A DNA stretch of 64,000 nucleotides from positions 124,001-188,000 of the forward strand of contig JASEFA010000001.1 of NCBI GenBank assembly GCA_030019365.1, written 5' to 3'. A program made the translations under genes and the position numbers. Positions 17,000 through 35,719 of this stretch are shown piece after piece. Under the pieces are notes generated by a model that was given only the letters and a program-made list of their open reading frames with translations, was not told the origin of the DNA and made no database searches. Origin of the DNA: Bacillota bacterium. Lineage in GTDB: Bacteria; Bacillota; Sulfobacillia; JACIYH01. Each line of letters opens with the position of its first letter. Within the stretch, counting starts at the first letter, position 1.

Positions 17000-18152
17000 A
17001 CCCCTTGCTCCTTCCCGTTACCTCCCTGAACAGGCTCGCGTAGCGAGCGCCCACCCGGGGCCAGGTCATGGTCATGCCCAGGGCCGCCGCCCGTTGCCCC
17101 AGTTGCCGGCGCAGCCGGAAGGACCCCAGGATGCGGTTGACCGCGTGTTCGATGGCGTTGGCGTTGCGGAACTCCACCAGCAGCCCCCGGTTTCCCGCCA
17201 GCAGCTCCCGGGCGTGCAGATAGGGCGTGGAGACGATGGCCTTCCCCAGTCCCAGGGCGTATGCCAGGGTGCCGGATACGATCTGGTCTTCCCCCAGGTA
17301 AGGGGTGACGTACACGTCGGCGGCCAGCAGGTAGTCAGTGAGCTCCGCCTCGGTGAGGTAGGAGTCCAGGAAGCACACGTGCTCGCTCACCCCCAGGTCG
17401 GCCGCCAGGCCCGCCAGGTGCTGCCGGTAGCTTTCCCCGTAGAGCTTTCTCACCACAGGGTGGGTCTGTCCCAGCACCAGGTAGAGCACCCGCGGATGCC
17501 GCCTCACGATGCCGGGCAGGGCGCGGAGCATGTATTCGATGCCCTTGCCCGGGTTGATGAGCCCGAAGGTGCACAGCACCTGCCTTCCCGCCAGACCCAG
17601 GCGCCGCCTGATTTCCCGGCGGCTCCACGCCCGCACGGCGGGCACGCCGTGAGGTATCACCTGCACCAGGGAGGGGTCGATGCCGTATACCTCCCCGAGC
17701 AGGCGGCGGCCGGTCTCCGTCATCACCAACAGGGCAGCCGAGCGTTCCCCCAGCCTGCGGATGATCTCGCGCTGGGCGGGTAGCGGGCGGGAGAGTACGG
17801 TGTGCAGGGTTACCACCAGCGGGCGCTGCAGGCGATCCACCAGCTCCAGCACCGTCTCGCCGTGCTCGCCGCCGAAGATGCCGTACTCGTGGTGGAGGTT
17901 CACCACCGGGCAGCCGGCCCGGTTCAGGAAGTCGGCGGCCGCCCGGTAGTCCGCGGGGTGGCCCTGGCGGATCTCGCCGATGACGACCCTGCCGTAATCG
18001 TATGCGCCCCCGTGGTCGCTTACCGCGATCACCCGGCTCTGCCATCCGGCGGCCTCTACGCCGGCCATGAGGTTGGACACGAAGGTGGCCAGGCCGCAAC
18101 GCCGCGGCGGAAAGGTGCTCAGGTAGCAAACCATGTTGGCGTCAACAAGCAA
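16815..18152 (-). CDS. GT4-family glycosyltransferase
   Basis: A GT-B fold glycosyltransferase of 445 residues. The N-terminal domain opens with M-V-C-Y-L-S-T-F-P-P-R-R-C-G-L-A, and H-H-E-Y-G-I-F-G-G-E-H lies near residue 100. The C-terminal nucleotide-sugar domain has C-T-F-G-L-I-N-P-G-K-G-I-E and the D-Q-I-V-S-G-T-L-A-Y-A-L-G block in the usual E-x7-E region. The TTG at 18152 is chosen for its GGAGGA site 7 bases upstream; ATG 18173 is the alternative. The last 60 or so codons overlap the barrel gene in another frame and look like read-through with no domain content. The product polysaccharide is unknown. Confidence 0.82.
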   Translation of the reverse strand: MLVDANMVCYLSTFPPRRCGLATFVSNLMAGVEAAGWQSRVIAVSDHGGAYDYGRVVIGEIRQGHPADYRAAADFLNRAGCPVVNLHHEYGIFGGEHGETVLELVDRLQRPLVVTLHTVLSRPLPAQREIIRRLGERSAALLVMTETGRRLLGEVYGIDPSLVQVIPHGVPAVRAWSRREIRRRLGLAGRQVLCTFGLINPGKGIEYMLRALPGIVRRHPRVLYLVLGQTHPVVRKLYGESYRQHLAGLAADLGVSEHVCFLDSYLTEAELTDYLLAADVYVTPYLGEDQIVSGTLAYALGLGKAIVSTPYLHARELLAGNRGLLVEFRNANAIEHAVNRILGSFRLRRQLGQRAAALGMTMTWPRVGARYASLFREVTGRSKGYERVRQLTVPHLALGPPAAPDGLHRPHPARHLFPAGPGQRVHHRRQQPSPGTPDEGAKHVR

Positions 18153-18297
18153 GGATCTTCCTCCCCGGTGCATGTTGGGCCGCCCCGGTGTAAGGTTTCC
18201 CGGCCCCGGTTTCCCTATCCTGAGGAAACCTTTCCAGATCCCCGGGACGTCGTTCCGCCCAGGAGGAATTCCAGCCCGGATGGAGAATAGGACAAGC

Positions 18298-18326
18298 AAA
18301 GTGGGTCAAAGTGGTGAACGGTGGGG
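18298..18326 (+). promoter_or_regulatory. Probable MraZ operator: three direct repeats at 10-bp spacing
   Basis: AAAGTGG at 18298-18304, AAAGTGG at 18308-18314 and ACGGTGG at 18318-18324 recur with an exact 10-base period; the TGG cores fall at 18302, 18312 and 18322. MraZ proteins are known to bind short direct repeats of this spacing (TGGGN in E. coli, AAAGTG-type in Mycoplasma) upstream of their own operon. The position just before mraZ fits autoregulation of the dcw cluster. Confidence 0.65.
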
Positions 18327-18354
18327 AAGCGGACGGCGAAGGGAGGGGCGGGGC

Positions 18355-18807
18355 ACGTTTCTCGGACAGTACGTTCACAGCATGGACGACAAGGGTCGGG
18401 TGGCCATCCCCGCCCGTTTCCGCTCTGAACTGGGGGAGCGCATGGTGGTCACCCGCGGGCTGGATAAATGCCTGTGGGTGTACCCCTGGGAGACCTGGCG
18501 CGTCATCTCCGGTCGTTTCACCCAGCTTCCCATCACGCGGGCCCGCAACCGCAACTTCCAGCGCTACTTCTTCGCGGGGGCGGTGGAGTGTGCGCCCGAT
18601 GCCCAGGGACGCATCCTCATCACCCCCGCCCTGCGCGGGTACGCGGGCCTGGCCCGGGAAGTGGTGGTGGCCGGGGTTTCCGACCACGTGGAGGTTTGGG
18701 ACCGGGCGGGATGGGAGGCTCTGGAGGAGCAGGTCAACGCCGAGTATGAGGAGATCGCCGAGAGCCTTTACGCCTCCGAGGACGCCCGAGAGGAGGGAGG
18801 CCGGTAG
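18355..18807 (+). CDS. mraZ: Transcriptional regulator MraZ
   Basis: MraZ has two tandem AbrB-like swapped-hairpin domains, and 150 residues are visible from the family-conserved beginning. The signature F-L-G-Q-Y-x-H-S-M-D-D-K-G-R-V-A-I-P-A-R-F-R opens the first half; D-A-Q-G-R-I-L-I-T-P-A-L-R opens the second. It regulates the dcw operon. The codon before F-L-G-Q-Y, where relatives have Met, is ACG at 18355, with GGGAGGGG 6 bases upstream. Conventional in-frame starts exist at GTG 18301 and ATG 18280, but they would put the MraZ repeats inside the gene and add a basic extension. The stop overlaps rsmH by one base. The product is certain; the start is not. Confidence 0.9.
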   Translation, partial: TFLGQYVHSMDDKGRVAIPARFRSELGERMVVTRGLDKCLWVYPWETWRVISGRFTQLPITRARNRNFQRYFFAGAVECAPDAQGRILITPALRGYAGLAREVVVAGVSDHVEVWDRAGWEALEEQVNAEYEEIAESLYASEDAREEGGR

Positions 18808-19733
18808 TGCACCGGCCGGTGATGGTGGCGAAGGTCCTCGACCTGCTGGGAGTGAGAGAAGGGGGCGCCTACGTGGACTGCACCGTGGGTGAAGGGGGCC
18901 ACGCCCGCGCCATCCTGGAAAAGGCAGGTCCCCACGCACGCCTGCTGGGCCTGGACCGGGACGGAGAAACCCTGGAGACGGCGGCCCGGCAGCTTTCAGC
19001 CTGGGGGGAGCAGGTGTGCCTGCGTCATGAGTCCTTTTCCCGCCTGGAGAACGTTCTGGCGGTAGAAGGCTGGGGACGGGTGGACGGCGTGCTCTTCGAC
19101 CTGGGCGTCTCCTCCCGGCACCTGGACGATCCCGGGCGGGGTTTCTCCTACCGGCAGGAGGGGCCGCTGGACATGCGCATGGACCGCCGCCAGGAGACCA
19201 CGGCTGCGGACCTGGTGAATCGGCTGCCGGAGGACGAGCTGGCCTTCATCATATCCCACTACGGCGAGGAGCGCTGGGCGCACCGCATTGCCCGCCGCAT
19301 CGCGGAAAGCCGGACGCGGGCCCCCATCCGCACCACCACGGAGCTGGCAGCGATCATCAAGGATGCTATCCCGGCCCCGGCGCGCCGGCGCGGGGGACAT
19401 CCCGCCCGGCGCACTTTCCAGGCCCTGCGCATTGCCGTCAACCGGGAGCTGGCGGAGCTCGAGCAGGGTCTCGAGCAGGCCGCGGCGGCCTGCCGGCCCG
19501 GAGGCCGGGTGTGCGTGATCGCGTTTCATTCCCTGGAAGACCGCATCGTCAAGCAACGGTTCCTCGCCCTGGCCCGGGCGGGACGCGGCGCGGTGCTGAC
19601 GCGCCGCCCCCTGGTGCCGGGGCGCCAAGAGGTGGAAGCAAACCCGCGGGCGCGCAGCGCCAGGCTGCGGGGTTTCCAGGTTGGGGACGAGGGCGGGCAG
19701 CCCGAACCCGGCAGCGGAGCGACCATCGCATAG
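18807..19733 (+). CDS. rsmH: 16S rRNA (cytosine-1402-N4) methyltransferase RsmH
   Basis: The 308-residue S-adenosylmethionine methyltransferase that modifies C1402 in the ribosomal P site (formerly MraW). It begins H-R-P-V-M, then the SAM motif Y-V-D-C-T-V-G-E-G-G-H. Family blocks F-D-L-G-V-S-S-x-x-L-D, G-P-L-D-M-R-M-D, Q-A-L-R-I-A-V-N-x-E-L and F-H-S-L-E-D-R-x-V-K are all intact. GTG start overlapping the mraZ stop by one base, so the two are translated together. Length is normal for the family. Confidence 0.95.
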   Translation: MHRPVMVAKVLDLLGVREGGAYVDCTVGEGGHARAILEKAGPHARLLGLDRDGETLETAARQLSAWGEQVCLRHESFSRLENVLAVEGWGRVDGVLFDLGVSSRHLDDPGRGFSYRQEGPLDMRMDRRQETTAADLVNRLPEDELAFIISHYGEERWAHRIARRIAESRTRAPIRTTTELAAIIKDAIPAPARRRGGHPARRTFQALRIAVNRELAELEQGLEQAAAACRPGGRVCVIAFHSLEDRIVKQRFLALARAGRGAVLTRRPLVPGRQEVEANPRARSARLRGFQVGDEGGQPEPGSGATIA

Positions 19734-19755: not shown

Positions 19756-20430
19756 ATGGTTATGGCCGATGAGGCCTGGACCGGCCGGTGGGGAGGATAC
19801 GCTCGCCCGCAAAGGCAACGGGCGGGCCGGGTCCGTCCCGCGGGCGGGGCGCAGGCCCATCCCGTGCGACCCGCCCGGGTCCATGCGGCCGCGCAGGCCC
19901 ATCCCGTGCGACCCGCCCGGGCCCATGCGGCCGCGCAGGCCCATCCCGTGCGACCCGCCCGGGCCCATGCGGCGGCCGGGGCTCGTGCCGGCGGGGCGGC
20001 CCGGGCCCGTCAGGCGTGGGCGGTCCGGCTGCGCACCCTGGCACGCCCGCTGGGTTCGGTGTGGGTGATGGGACCGGCGCTGGTGGGAATGGCGGTACTG
20101 GTGGCGCTGGCCCTGGTGTATCTGCACGTGGCCTGCCTGGACACCGGGCACCGCATACTGGCCCTCGAGAAGGAGCTGCGGGCCTTACAGGCCGACAACG
20201 AACGCCTGCAACTGGCGGTCCTGCGTCTGGATTCTCCGGCCCGCGTTGAGCAGGTGGCCAGGGATAAGCTGGGAATGGTGCCCGTCCGGGAGGCCCGGGT
20301 GGTGACGGCCGCGCCCGACCAGGTGCGCGAGGTCCAGCCGCCGGTGACCGTGTCCTGGCTGGAGCGGGTGGCCTTGTACCTGGCGGGGTTGCTGGAAGGA
20401 CGGGGAGTGCTGGCCGGTCCGGCCCGATAG
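19756..20430 (+). CDS. ftsL: FtsL-like divisome protein with repeat-bearing N-terminus
   Basis: A small bitopic protein, 224 residues, in the FtsL position between rsmH and the PBP gene. A membrane segment runs about residues 103-125. It is followed by a coiled coil (I-L-A-L-E-K-E-L-R-A-L-Q-A-D-N-E-R-L) and a short extracytoplasmic tail with A-R-V-E-Q-V-A-R-D-K-L-G-M-V. FtsL bridges DivIB/FtsQ and the septal PBP. The cytoplasmic N-terminus is unusually long, basic and proline-rich. It contains three copies of a 14-residue unit (A-Q-A-H-P-V-R-P-A-R-x-H-A-A); most FtsL proteins have only about 30 residues there. ATG with GGAGG 7 bases upstream. Confidence 0.8.
   Translation: MVMADEAWTGRWGGYARPQRQRAGRVRPAGGAQAHPVRPARVHAAAQAHPVRPARAHAAAQAHPVRPARAHAAAGARAGGAARARQAWAVRLRTLARPLGSVWVMGPALVGMAVLVALALVYLHVACLDTGHRILALEKELRALQADNERLQLAVLRLDSPARVEQVARDKLGMVPVREARVVTAAPDQVREVQPPVTVSWLERVALYLAGLLEGRGVLAGPAR
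19849..19974 (+). repeat. Three in-frame 42-bp tandem repeats inside ftsL
   Basis: Units at 19849-19890, 19891-19932 and 19933-19974 are almost identical (GCGCAGGCCCATCCCGTGCG at the start of each). The period is a multiple of three, so copy-number change would keep the frame. Each unit adds 14 residues to the cytoplasmic tail of the FtsL-like protein. Confidence 0.9.
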
Positions 20431-22534: not shown

Positions 22535-24034
22535 GTGGCCGTTGCTATGAACGTGGGGGAACTGGTGAGGATACTGCCCGAGAAAGACTTAAGGGGCGAC
22601 CCGGCGACGGAGATCACAGGTCTGGCCTACCACTCCGGGGCGGTGCGCCCCGGGTTCCTTTTCGCCTGCTGGCGGGGGCTGAAGTTCGACGGCCACGACT
22701 TCGCGCCCGAGGCGGTGCGCCGGGGGGCGCGGGCTCTCCTGGTGGAGAGAGGCGTGGACCTCCCCCCCGGCGTGGTCCAGGTATTGGTACCTTCCTCCCG
22801 GCGCGCCCTGGCCCTGGTGGCCGCCACCTTCTGGGGGCACCCTTCCCGCCGCCTGCGGCTGGTGGGTGTGACCGGCACCAACGGCAAGACTACCACCACC
22901 TACCTGATCCGTCACATCCTGGCTGCCTGCGGCCACCGGGTGGGGCTGATGGGCACCGTGCGCAACGTGGTGTGCGACCGGGAGCTGCCGGTGGAGCGGA
23001 CCACGCCCGAGTCGGTGGACATCATGGCGCTGCTCGCCCAAATGGTGGAGTGCGGGTCTGCTTACTGCTCCATGGAAGTATCTTCCCACGCCCTCGACCA
23101 GGAGCGGGTGGCCGGATGCGAGTTCGCTGTAGCGGTGTTCACCAACCTCACCCAGGACCACCTGGACTACCACCCCACCTTCGCGGATTACCTGGAGGCC
23201 AAGCTGGGGTTGTTCCGCAGCCTGGGCCGGGGATACCTGGGAAGCACCACGGGCAAGAAGCTGGCGGCGGTCAACACCGACGACGCTTCATACCCTCGCT
23301 TTGCCGGGGAGGCCCGCCGGGCGGGGGCGGGCGTGGTCAGCTACGGCATGCACCCTCCCGCCGATGTCACGGCGGCCGGCGTGCGCATGAGCGCGGAGGG
23401 GACCTCCTTCCTGGTCCGGACTCCGGCGGGGGAGGCCCCGGTGAGCCTTCCCCTGGTGGGGCGATTCAACGTATACAACGCCCTGGCCGCCCTGGCCGTG
23501 GCCGTCGGGGAGGGCGTGCCCCTGGCCCTGGCCGTGCGGGCCCTGGCTGAGGCGCCCCAGGTTCCCGGCCGGTTCGAAAGGATCAGGGAGGCGCGCGAGT
23601 TCTCGGTGATCGTGGACTACGCCCACACCCCCGACGGCCTGCGCAACGTGCTGGAGACCGCCCGGGAGATCACGCCGGGCCGGGTGATCGCGGTGTTCGG
23701 TTGCGGGGGCGACCGGGACCGGGGCAAGCGACCCATCATGGGCCGGATCGCCCGCGAGCTGGCCGACGTGACCGTCATCACCTCTGATAACCCGCGGAGC
23801 GAAGATCCCCGGGCCATTATCGGGGAAATCGAAGAGGGGGTGCGGGCTCCCGGTTACCGCTACCTGCTCGAGCCCGACCGGCGCCGGGCCATATCCCTGG
23901 CGCTGGCCGAAGCCGCCCCGGGCGACCTGGTGCTGGTGGCCGGCAAGGGGCACGAGACGTACCAGGTGATCGGGGACCGTACCCTGCCCTTCGACGATCG
24001 CCAGGTGGTGCGGGAACTGCTGGCAGGGAGGTGA
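22535..24034 (+). CDS. murE: UDP-MurNAc-L-Ala-D-Glu:meso-diaminopimelate ligase
   Basis: A cytoplasmic ATP-dependent ligase adding the third stem-peptide residue to the peptidoglycan precursor; 499 residues. The P-loop V-T-G-T-N-G-K-T-T-T-T sits in the Mur central domain. The C-terminal domain has the D-N-P-R-S-E-D-P motif, which marks meso-diaminopimelate specificity as opposed to lysine. The carbamylated-lysine region and H-T-P-D-G-L motif are intact. The GTG at 22535 has AGGGG 6 bases upstream; the ATG at 22547 is possible. The end overlaps murF by 4 bases. Confidence 0.94.
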   Translation: MAVAMNVGELVRILPEKDLRGDPATEITGLAYHSGAVRPGFLFACWRGLKFDGHDFAPEAVRRGARALLVERGVDLPPGVVQVLVPSSRRALALVAATFWGHPSRRLRLVGVTGTNGKTTTTYLIRHILAACGHRVGLMGTVRNVVCDRELPVERTTPESVDIMALLAQMVECGSAYCSMEVSSHALDQERVAGCEFAVAVFTNLTQDHLDYHPTFADYLEAKLGLFRSLGRGYLGSTTGKKLAAVNTDDASYPRFAGEARRAGAGVVSYGMHPPADVTAAGVRMSAEGTSFLVRTPAGEAPVSLPLVGRFNVYNALAALAVAVGEGVPLALAVRALAEAPQVPGRFERIREAREFSVIVDYAHTPDGLRNVLETAREITPGRVIAVFGCGGDRDRGKRPIMGRIARELADVTVITSDNPRSEDPRAIIGEIEEGVRAPGYRYLLEPDRRRAISLALAEAAPGDLVLVAGKGHETYQVIGDRTLPFDDRQVVRELLAGR

Positions 24035-25422
24035 GGCCGCTGCTGTTCACCGTCGCGGAAGCCTGCCACATCCTGGATGCCCGCCTCCTCTTCCCCGGTG
24101 AAAACGCGGAGATCCTGGCGGTGACCCACGACAGCAGGCGGGCGGGTCCCGGGTTTCTCTTCGTGGCCATACCGGGCGCCACCACCGACGGCCACCTCTT
24201 CCTGGAGGACGTCTTCGCCCGCGGAGCGGTGGCGGCCCTGATCTCCCGGGAGCCCCCGCGGCATCCGGGTGGTCCCTGCCTGCTCGTCCCCGACACGACC
24301 CTGGCCCTGGGCAGGTTGGGACTTGCCCATCGCCTGCGTTTCGCTCCCCTGGTGGTGGGGATTACCGGTTCCCTGGGCAAGACCAGCACCAAGGACATGG
24401 CGGCGTCGGTACTGGGGACCCGTTACCGGGTGCTGAGGAACGAGGGTAACCTGAACACCGAGGTGGGGGTTCCCCTGACCCTCCTGCAACTTGATTCGAC
24501 TCACGAGGTTGCGCTCATCGAGATGGCCATGCGGGGACGGGGGCAGATCACCTACCTGGCCGGCCTGGCCCGGCCCCGCATGGGGGTAGTCACCAATGTG
24601 TCCGAGAGTCACCTGGAGCTGCTGGGGTCGGTGGAAGAGGTGGCCCGCGCCAAAGCCGAGCTGGTGGCGGCCCTTCCTCCCGACGGTACCGCCGTCCTGA
24701 ACGGGGACGATCCCCGGGTGCGCGCCATGGCCGAGGAGTGCCCGGGGCGGGTGGTGTACTTCGGCCTGGGGGAAGAATGCCAGGTACGGGCCACGGGGGT
24801 GCAGTCTCTGGCCGACCGGGGGAGCCGCTTCCTCCTCCACCTGGACGGGGAAAGGGCGGAGGTGCTGCTGCCCGTTCCCGGCCGGCACCAGGTGCCCAAC
24901 GCTCTGGCCGCCGCCGCCCTGGGGTGGGTGCTGGATCTCCCCGCCGCCGACATCGTGCGGGGCCTGCAGGACCCCGCCCTGTCGGGGATGCGCATGGAAG
25001 TCCTGCGGCTGGGCGGGCTGACCGTCCTCAACGATGCCTACAATGCCAGCCCCACCAGCACTTCGGCGGCCCTGGAGACTCTCGTGGAGATGCCGGGGAG
25101 CCGCCACCTGGCCGTGCTCGGTGACATGCTGGAGCTGGGGTCGCGCACCGTCCCCGGGCACCGGGAGGTGGGGAGGCTGGTGGCCCGGCTGGGGCTGGAT
25201 CACCTGGTGACGGTGGGCCCCCATTCCCGGGAGCTGGCCCGGGCTGCCCGCGAGGAGGGCATGCCCGCCCCCCGCATCGCCCGGGTGGATGCCGCCCCGG
25301 AGGCGGCCCGGCTGGTGAGCGACCTGGTGAAAGAGGGAGACGTGGTGCTGGTGAAGGGGTCGCGGGGCATGAAGCTGGAGCAGGTGGTGGCCGCGTTGCG
25401 GCAGAGGTGGGGGCCCAGATGA
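24031..25422 (+). CDS. murF: UDP-MurNAc-tripeptide:D-Ala-D-Ala ligase
   Basis: A 463-residue Mur ligase adding the D-Ala-D-Ala dipeptide in the cytoplasm. The P-loop is I-T-G-S-L-G-K-T-S-T-K, followed by N-E-G-N-L-N-T-E-V-G-V-P, the MurF-specific substrate motif. The adenine/ribose block is N-A-L-A-A-A-A-L-G, and the C-terminal domain has N-D-A-Y-N-A-S-P, typical of MurF. GTG start inside the murE stop region (4-base overlap); the end overlaps mraY. Confidence 0.95.
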   Translation: MRPLLFTVAEACHILDARLLFPGENAEILAVTHDSRRAGPGFLFVAIPGATTDGHLFLEDVFARGAVAALISREPPRHPGGPCLLVPDTTLALGRLGLAHRLRFAPLVVGITGSLGKTSTKDMAASVLGTRYRVLRNEGNLNTEVGVPLTLLQLDSTHEVALIEMAMRGRGQITYLAGLARPRMGVVTNVSESHLELLGSVEEVARAKAELVAALPPDGTAVLNGDDPRVRAMAEECPGRVVYFGLGEECQVRATGVQSLADRGSRFLLHLDGERAEVLLPVPGRHQVPNALAAAALGWVLDLPAADIVRGLQDPALSGMRMEVLRLGGLTVLNDAYNASPTSTSAALETLVEMPGSRHLAVLGDMLELGSRTVPGHREVGRLVARLGLDHLVTVGPHSRELARAAREEGMPAPRIARVDAAPEAARLVSDLVKEGDVVLVKGSRGMKLEQVVAALRQRWGPR

Positions 25423-35623: not shown

Positions 35624-35719
35624 AGGTCGCTCCCCGCAGCCGCAGGTGGGCCGCGCGGTCGGCCCGGGCTGCGGGGCTGCGGGTGGGCGTGCAGGGAGAG
35701 GGAATCGGGAGGTGTGGGG

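Follow-up and report, generated by a model that had tools for sequence, protein, structure and literature searches.

Probable loss of the mraZ ATG start codon to ACG downstream of a predicted sigma-H-type promoter and MraZ boxes in a Sulfobacillia genome

Introduction

MraZ, a repressor encoded by the first gene of the dcw cluster, is among the most widespread bacterial regulators. In the genome analyzed here, the codon directly before the conserved MraZ N-terminus reads ACG, raising the question of where translation of mraZ begins, how the gene came to carry this codon and what the change would mean for control of the division cluster. We therefore compared the locus with two genomes of the same genus, with the mraZ loci of its class and with genomes across the phylum.

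Results

The mraZ locus and its ACG codon

The stretch of 64,000 nucleotides analyzed here (the window) belongs to contig 1 of a genome assembled into 27 contigs totalling 2.94 Mb. Its dcw cluster spans 18.3–36.8 kb, with mraZ, rsmH, an ftsL-like gene and spoVD/PBP as the first genes and ftsZ at 35714. Read from 18358, the mraZ product scored 137.6 bits against TIGR00242, the curated MraZ equivalog model (cut-off 98.35), and 126.8 bits in two stretches against PF02381, and it matched the solved MraZ chains 9qlr, 9qlg, 9sx6 and 1n0e. The TIGR00242 alignment starts at model position 2, the query protein having begun at the F of FLGQY. The gene heads the cluster with rsmH next to it, and is preceded by direct repeats in a 10-base register, to which binding and repression by MraZ are predicted; a canonical start at the conserved N-terminus, which is usual for the family and not family-defining, is replaced by ACG. 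Further along the cluster, the ftsL-like gene (37.6 bits, cut-off 42.45) and the spoVD/PBP gene (593.3 bits, spoVD cut-off 688) fall under their model cut-offs. The N-terminal part of the ftsL-like gene (19780–19960) carries three near-identical repeats (AHPVRPARxHAAAQ) that resemble a tandem expansion.

The first-pass annotation had proposed that mraZ may start at this ACG, with FLGQY right after it and a strong ribosome site 6 bases upstream, and both elements were located as described: the codons TTT CTC GGA CAG TAC (F-L-G-Q-Y) lie directly 3' of ACG 18355–18357, and the 6 bases that separate it from the Shine-Dalgarno site GGGAGGGG are a good spacing. A start at 18355 would give the peptide Met-FLGQYVHSMDDK. 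The closest canonical in-frame codon upstream is GTG 18301, 18 codons away, and ATG 18280 is likewise in frame with mraZ. The features of the locus are collected in Table 1, in which G001 (JACIYH010000039.1, a Bacillota metagenome assembly) and G002 are the two same-genus genomes.

Table 1 Predicted features of the mraZ locus (positions in the window).
Feature	Position	Strand	Comparison or basis
-35 element GGAGGAATT, fits RNAGGAWWW	18262..18270	+	printed consensus PMC8510167
In-frame ATG, judged unused	18280..18282	+	overlaps -10 element; GTG in G002
-10 element GGAGAAT, fits RNNGAAT	18282..18288	+	conserved in G001 and G002
Three predicted MraZ boxes (AAAGTGG, AAAGTGG, CGGTGGG), 10-base register	18298..18325	+	conserved in both sisters
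Shine-Dalgarno site GGGAGGGG (contains GGAGG)	18341..18348	+	identical in G001, G-rich in G002
ACG at ancestral mraZ start codon	18355..18357	+	ATG at aligned codon in G001 and G002
mraZ coding region after start codon, TAG stop 18805–18807	18358..18807	+	intact frame, purifying selection
rsmH (mraW), GTG start sharing one base with mraZ stop	18807..19733	+	TIGR00006

Across the trio of the window, G001 and G002, the dN/dS of mraZ was 0.11–0.19, and the window-specific codon changes comprised 19 silent and 7 replacing ones. The unbroken frame and these ratios speak against decay of the gene, with the caveat that they would not reveal a recent loss of the start. Since the purifying selection mostly predates the start change, it is no proof that MraZ is still produced.

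Same-genus genomes carry ATG at the aligned codon

In both sisters, ATG stands exactly at the codon aligned with ACG 18355 and is followed by TTT CTC GGA CA(G/A) TAC. This alignment supports the earlier suggestion of an ATG-to-ACG change. Because both sisters have ATG and the upstream starts are very unlikely (see below), a single T-to-C substitution appears to have removed the start codon of mraZ.

The main rival to a genuine substitution is that the organism has ATG and that the ACG stems from a consensus or sequencing error or represents a minor allele, which we consider unlikely, though it deserves serious weight. Such an error would involve a single base only, both sisters have ATG, one of them (G001) is a metagenome assembly, and canonical starts are otherwise kept in this assembly of 27 contigs. 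We compared starts between about 0.72 Mb of the window's genome and about 0.86 Mb of G002, dropping 154 of 307 orthologue pairs in which the G002 start had no ribosome-site support. The 153 retained pairs had a canonical start at the same site in 127 cases, within 15 codons in 25 and not at all in one, whose upstream parts appear to have been mispaired; with the two genomes exchanged, the counts were 122, 25 and 0 of 147. These counts speak on both sides, since they also indicate that starts have not generally been lost in the assembly. The comparison omits mraZ, whose protein alignment begins in a box, so that the mraZ result itself rests on the sister alignment. Also against an error, mraZ has no frame break, and in two further class genomes (G073 and G042) no canonical codon lies within 9 codons of the conserved mraZ N-terminus, so the gene seems occasionally to tolerate such a loss. 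Elsewhere in the cluster, at murF (24025–24050), CTG 24040 of the window aligns with a TTG in G002; the window instead offers GTG 24031, which is in frame and forms GTGA with the murE stop.

Upstream and downstream starts

An N-terminally extended MraZ of 18–25 residues, initiated at GTG 18301 or ATG 18280, would rescue the lost start. The window frame is indeed open for 76 codons upstream, and its spacing sets ATG 18280 in frame with mraZ, whereas in the sisters it is out of frame. In the two sisters, however, a TGA ends the open mraZ frame 14 and 16 codons 5' of the ATG, so a coding extension is not conserved; a conserved extension is what the first-pass annotation had named as evidence against its reading. 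Its placement of the boxes ahead of the start is likewise supported. ATG 18280 shares its last base with the conserved sigma-H-type -10 element, and a transcript from the predicted promoter would thus exclude it. GTG 18301 lies a few bases from the predicted mRNA end, within the first box, and has no ribosome site of its own; the added residues would be rich in Gly and Arg, and the alignment to the family model begins at the F of FLGQY (the query protein was given from F only). With the frame closed in both sisters and ATG 18280 touching the -10 element, ordinary upstream starts are very unlikely, and we give an extended protein little credence. Least credible is a shortened MraZ from ATG 18382, which is the next downstream in-frame ATG but has no preceding ribosome site and would lose FLGQYVHS, part of the conserved family N-terminus (the family alignment runs from model position 2).

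Missing canonical mraZ starts are rare in the class

We took the N-terminal regions of all 145 mraZ genes found among 154 class genomes and assessed 144 of these loci, leaving out one at a contig edge (L053). Directly before the conserved F/L, 114 of 144 carry a canonical codon (ATG 57, GTG 52, TTG 5); a canonical codon lies 2–6 codons upstream in 24 of 144 and 7–9 codons upstream in 3 of 144. The three loci with no ATG, GTG or TTG within 9 codons are those of the window (ACG), G073 (F preceded by CTC) and G042 (F preceded by CTG). Near-cognate or missing mraZ starts are thus rare in the class but not unique to the window. At the G083 locus (L130), CTG precedes the conserved Leu, and a GTG inside a box lies 8 codons upstream; there and in G042 (L148), the CTG stands behind a good ribosome site, marking possible further non-canonical starts.

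A predicted sigma-H-type promoter precedes three MraZ boxes

The three boxes, AAAGTGGgtc-AAAGTGGtga-ACGGTGGgga, start at 18298, 18308 and 18318. The window has a single instance of three GTGG at 10-base spacing (0.06 expected) and a single instance of AAAGTGG-N3-AAAGTGG-N6-GTGGG (0.01 expected), and genome-wide the box pattern has a sole mismatch-free match at 18298–18325, the other two matches having 3 mismatches. The operator is kept in both sisters, although the first box has two changes in G002, and a GTGG pair in 10-base register lies within 150 bases upstream of mraZ at 132 of 144 class loci. Four loci (L020, L062 and L063 of family f32, and L124) have at least four tandem boxes in 10-base register instead of three. 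The Mollicutes MraZ box is described as AAAGTG[T/G] repeats, the same motif as the window boxes (PMC8475190).

Just upstream of the boxes we identified a predicted sigma-H-type promoter (18262–18288) that the first-pass annotation had passed over. Sigma-H elements are spaced by 11–12 bases. In the window, 11 bases separate the -35 element GGAGGAATT from the -10 element GGAGAAT, so that the site fits RNAGGAWWW-N11-12-RNNGAAT; in the longer consensus RNAGGAWWW/RNNGAATWW (PMC8510167), the second W of the -10 element is G in the window. All three genomes of the genus share AGGAATT or GGAATT followed by GGAGAATAGGACAAGC at this place. The pattern AGGAWW-N14-17-GAAT has one site in the 64 kb window, that upstream of mraZ, with 0.32 expected; this single site is not significant alone, while the comparative count over 144 loci is. 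A scan of 18100–18420 returned no sigma-70-like promoter, and an Rfam search of 17500–19500 had no match, indicating no known RNA element in the leader. The RNA fold of 18295–18400 gave z -1.71, with 13 of 200 shuffles equally good, and was not counted as evidence.

The promoter and box arrangement recurs across the class and phylum

Upstream of mraZ, AGGA-N16-19-GAAT was present at 84 of 144 class loci versus a mean of 3.3 and a maximum of 9 in 100 shuffles, while the reverse complement gave 0 and reversed sequence 3; the full sigma-H consensus was present at 24 of 144 versus 0.11. The class genomes are related, and these counts are therefore not independent; promoter-bearing loci occur in at least one member of 28 of 47 families, and the simple pattern is absent from 60 of 144 loci. 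The commonest spacing sets GAAT 14–15 bases before the GTGG pair (27 of the 75 loci with a pair following). Across the phylum, the promoter plus two boxes was found in 187 of 398 genomes and the backwards pattern in 4 (counted from the table), and mraZ follows in all 30 of the 187 that were examined (24 by script, 6 by reading translations).

SigH is encoded in the window's genome (TIGR02859, 377.7 bits; cut-off 294.8). Promoter plus boxes occurred in 180 of the 358 of 398 genomes with a SigH match at E <= 1e-70, compared with 7 of the 40 with no or a weaker match (Fisher p = 8e-5), and in 0 of 14 genomes with a weak, diverged match; the SigH lists were hand-copied from tables, with six no-match genomes inferred by absence from the listing. 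Counting against the sigma-H reading, the promoter and boxes are present in 7 of 26 sampled genomes without a SigH match (E 1e-50). For six of the seven, another genome of the genus does carry SigH, so missing contigs are a likely explanation.

We also inspected the region upstream of mraZ in two chosen sets of 30 genomes: one in which SigH is absent or diverged, where 25 genomes have mraZ, and one of SigH-positive genomes picked non-randomly from the head of the list. A sigma-H-type site was present at 1 of 25 loci in the former and 12 of 30 in the latter (p = 0.003); boxes were present at 18 of 25 and 28 of 30, and sigma-70-like sites (>=9 of 12) at 16 of 25 and 10 of 30, respectively. Shared ancestry and base composition confound both SigH tests, which hence provide support and not proof. 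Together, the counts of 84 of 144 loci in the class and 187 of 398 genomes in the phylum, against 1 of 25 loci in genomes that lack SigH or have a diverged form, suggest sigma-H as the driver of the division cluster, with MraZ providing feedback. Among the open-access papers listed by our literature searches, none dealt with a sigma-H promoter in front of mraZ.

Discussion

We regard it as probable, on the comparative evidence above, that mraZ of the window starts at 18355, that its ATG became ACG by a single T-to-C change, and that a sigma-H promoter repressed through the MraZ boxes now operates with weakened MraZ feedback. Sigma-H RNA polymerase would begin transcription a few bases past the -10 element, at about 18295–18297, and an mRNA starting there would include the boxes, the ribosome site and ACG and leave out ATG 18280. 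MraZ would bind the boxes at about +1 to +30 and block the promoter. At ACG, initiation by Met-tRNAi should drop to a small fraction; in an E. coli RFP reporter library, an ACG start is reported to give 0.1–1.5% of ATG (PMC6925171). Such low initiation would make MraZ output low and feedback on the dcw cluster weak, leaving the operator, promoter and protein sequence intact. The same report describes the strength of non-canonical starts as context-dependent and of little predictive value (PMC6925171), and ACG could therefore be stronger or weaker in this organism. RsmH, encoded by the next gene, makes the m4C1402 mark, which is described as restricting initiation at non-AUG codons in E. coli (PMC7694415).

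A broader reading, which we offer tentatively and hold to be rather doubtful, is that across the phylum sigma-H commonly drives all of the division and cell-wall genes of the cluster from the mraZ promoter, with the boxes at a fixed distance behind it, and that the window species has nearly cut the feedback and kept the sigma-H half intact. Since rsmH provides the mark that restricts non-AUG initiation, residual MraZ output could on this reading even depend on the level of RsmH. If true, entry into transition or sporulation and MraZ feedback would converge on one short switch. The start change by itself is a curiosity, and the sigma-H/MraZ promoter architecture is more worth following: the sigma-H-plus-box promoter, found in about half of 398 genomes, offers a testable link from sporulation entry to division-cluster control. 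Loss of mraZ in E. coli is described as having no evident phenotype (PMC8475190), and a natural near-null at the mraZ start would be a test case for why cells keep MraZ.

The locus resembles known MraZ systems (TIGR00242/PF02381) in family, in its place before rsmH-ftsL-pbp-mur and in its AAAGTGG-type direct repeats, and differs from them in having ACG for ATG and boxes just after a sigma-H-type promoter. The predicted promoter is like the sigma-H (Spo0H) promoters of endospore formers, such as that of Bacillus thuringiensis spoVS, in its RNAGGAWWW and RNNGAAT elements (PMC8510167). In Clostridioides difficile, two genes from this type of cluster, ftsZ and spoVD, are reported to have sigma-H promoters (PMC7438776), whereas the window site precedes mraZ, the first gene, and is followed by MraZ boxes at a set distance. 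As for the codon, the window's near-cognate ACG stands behind a ribosome site, as do other non-AUG starts, among them infC and those of engineered NNN libraries. The AUU of infC is a bacterial non-AUG start codon. Unlike infC and the NNN libraries, the window combines a natural ACG with a repressor gene that adjoins rsmH.
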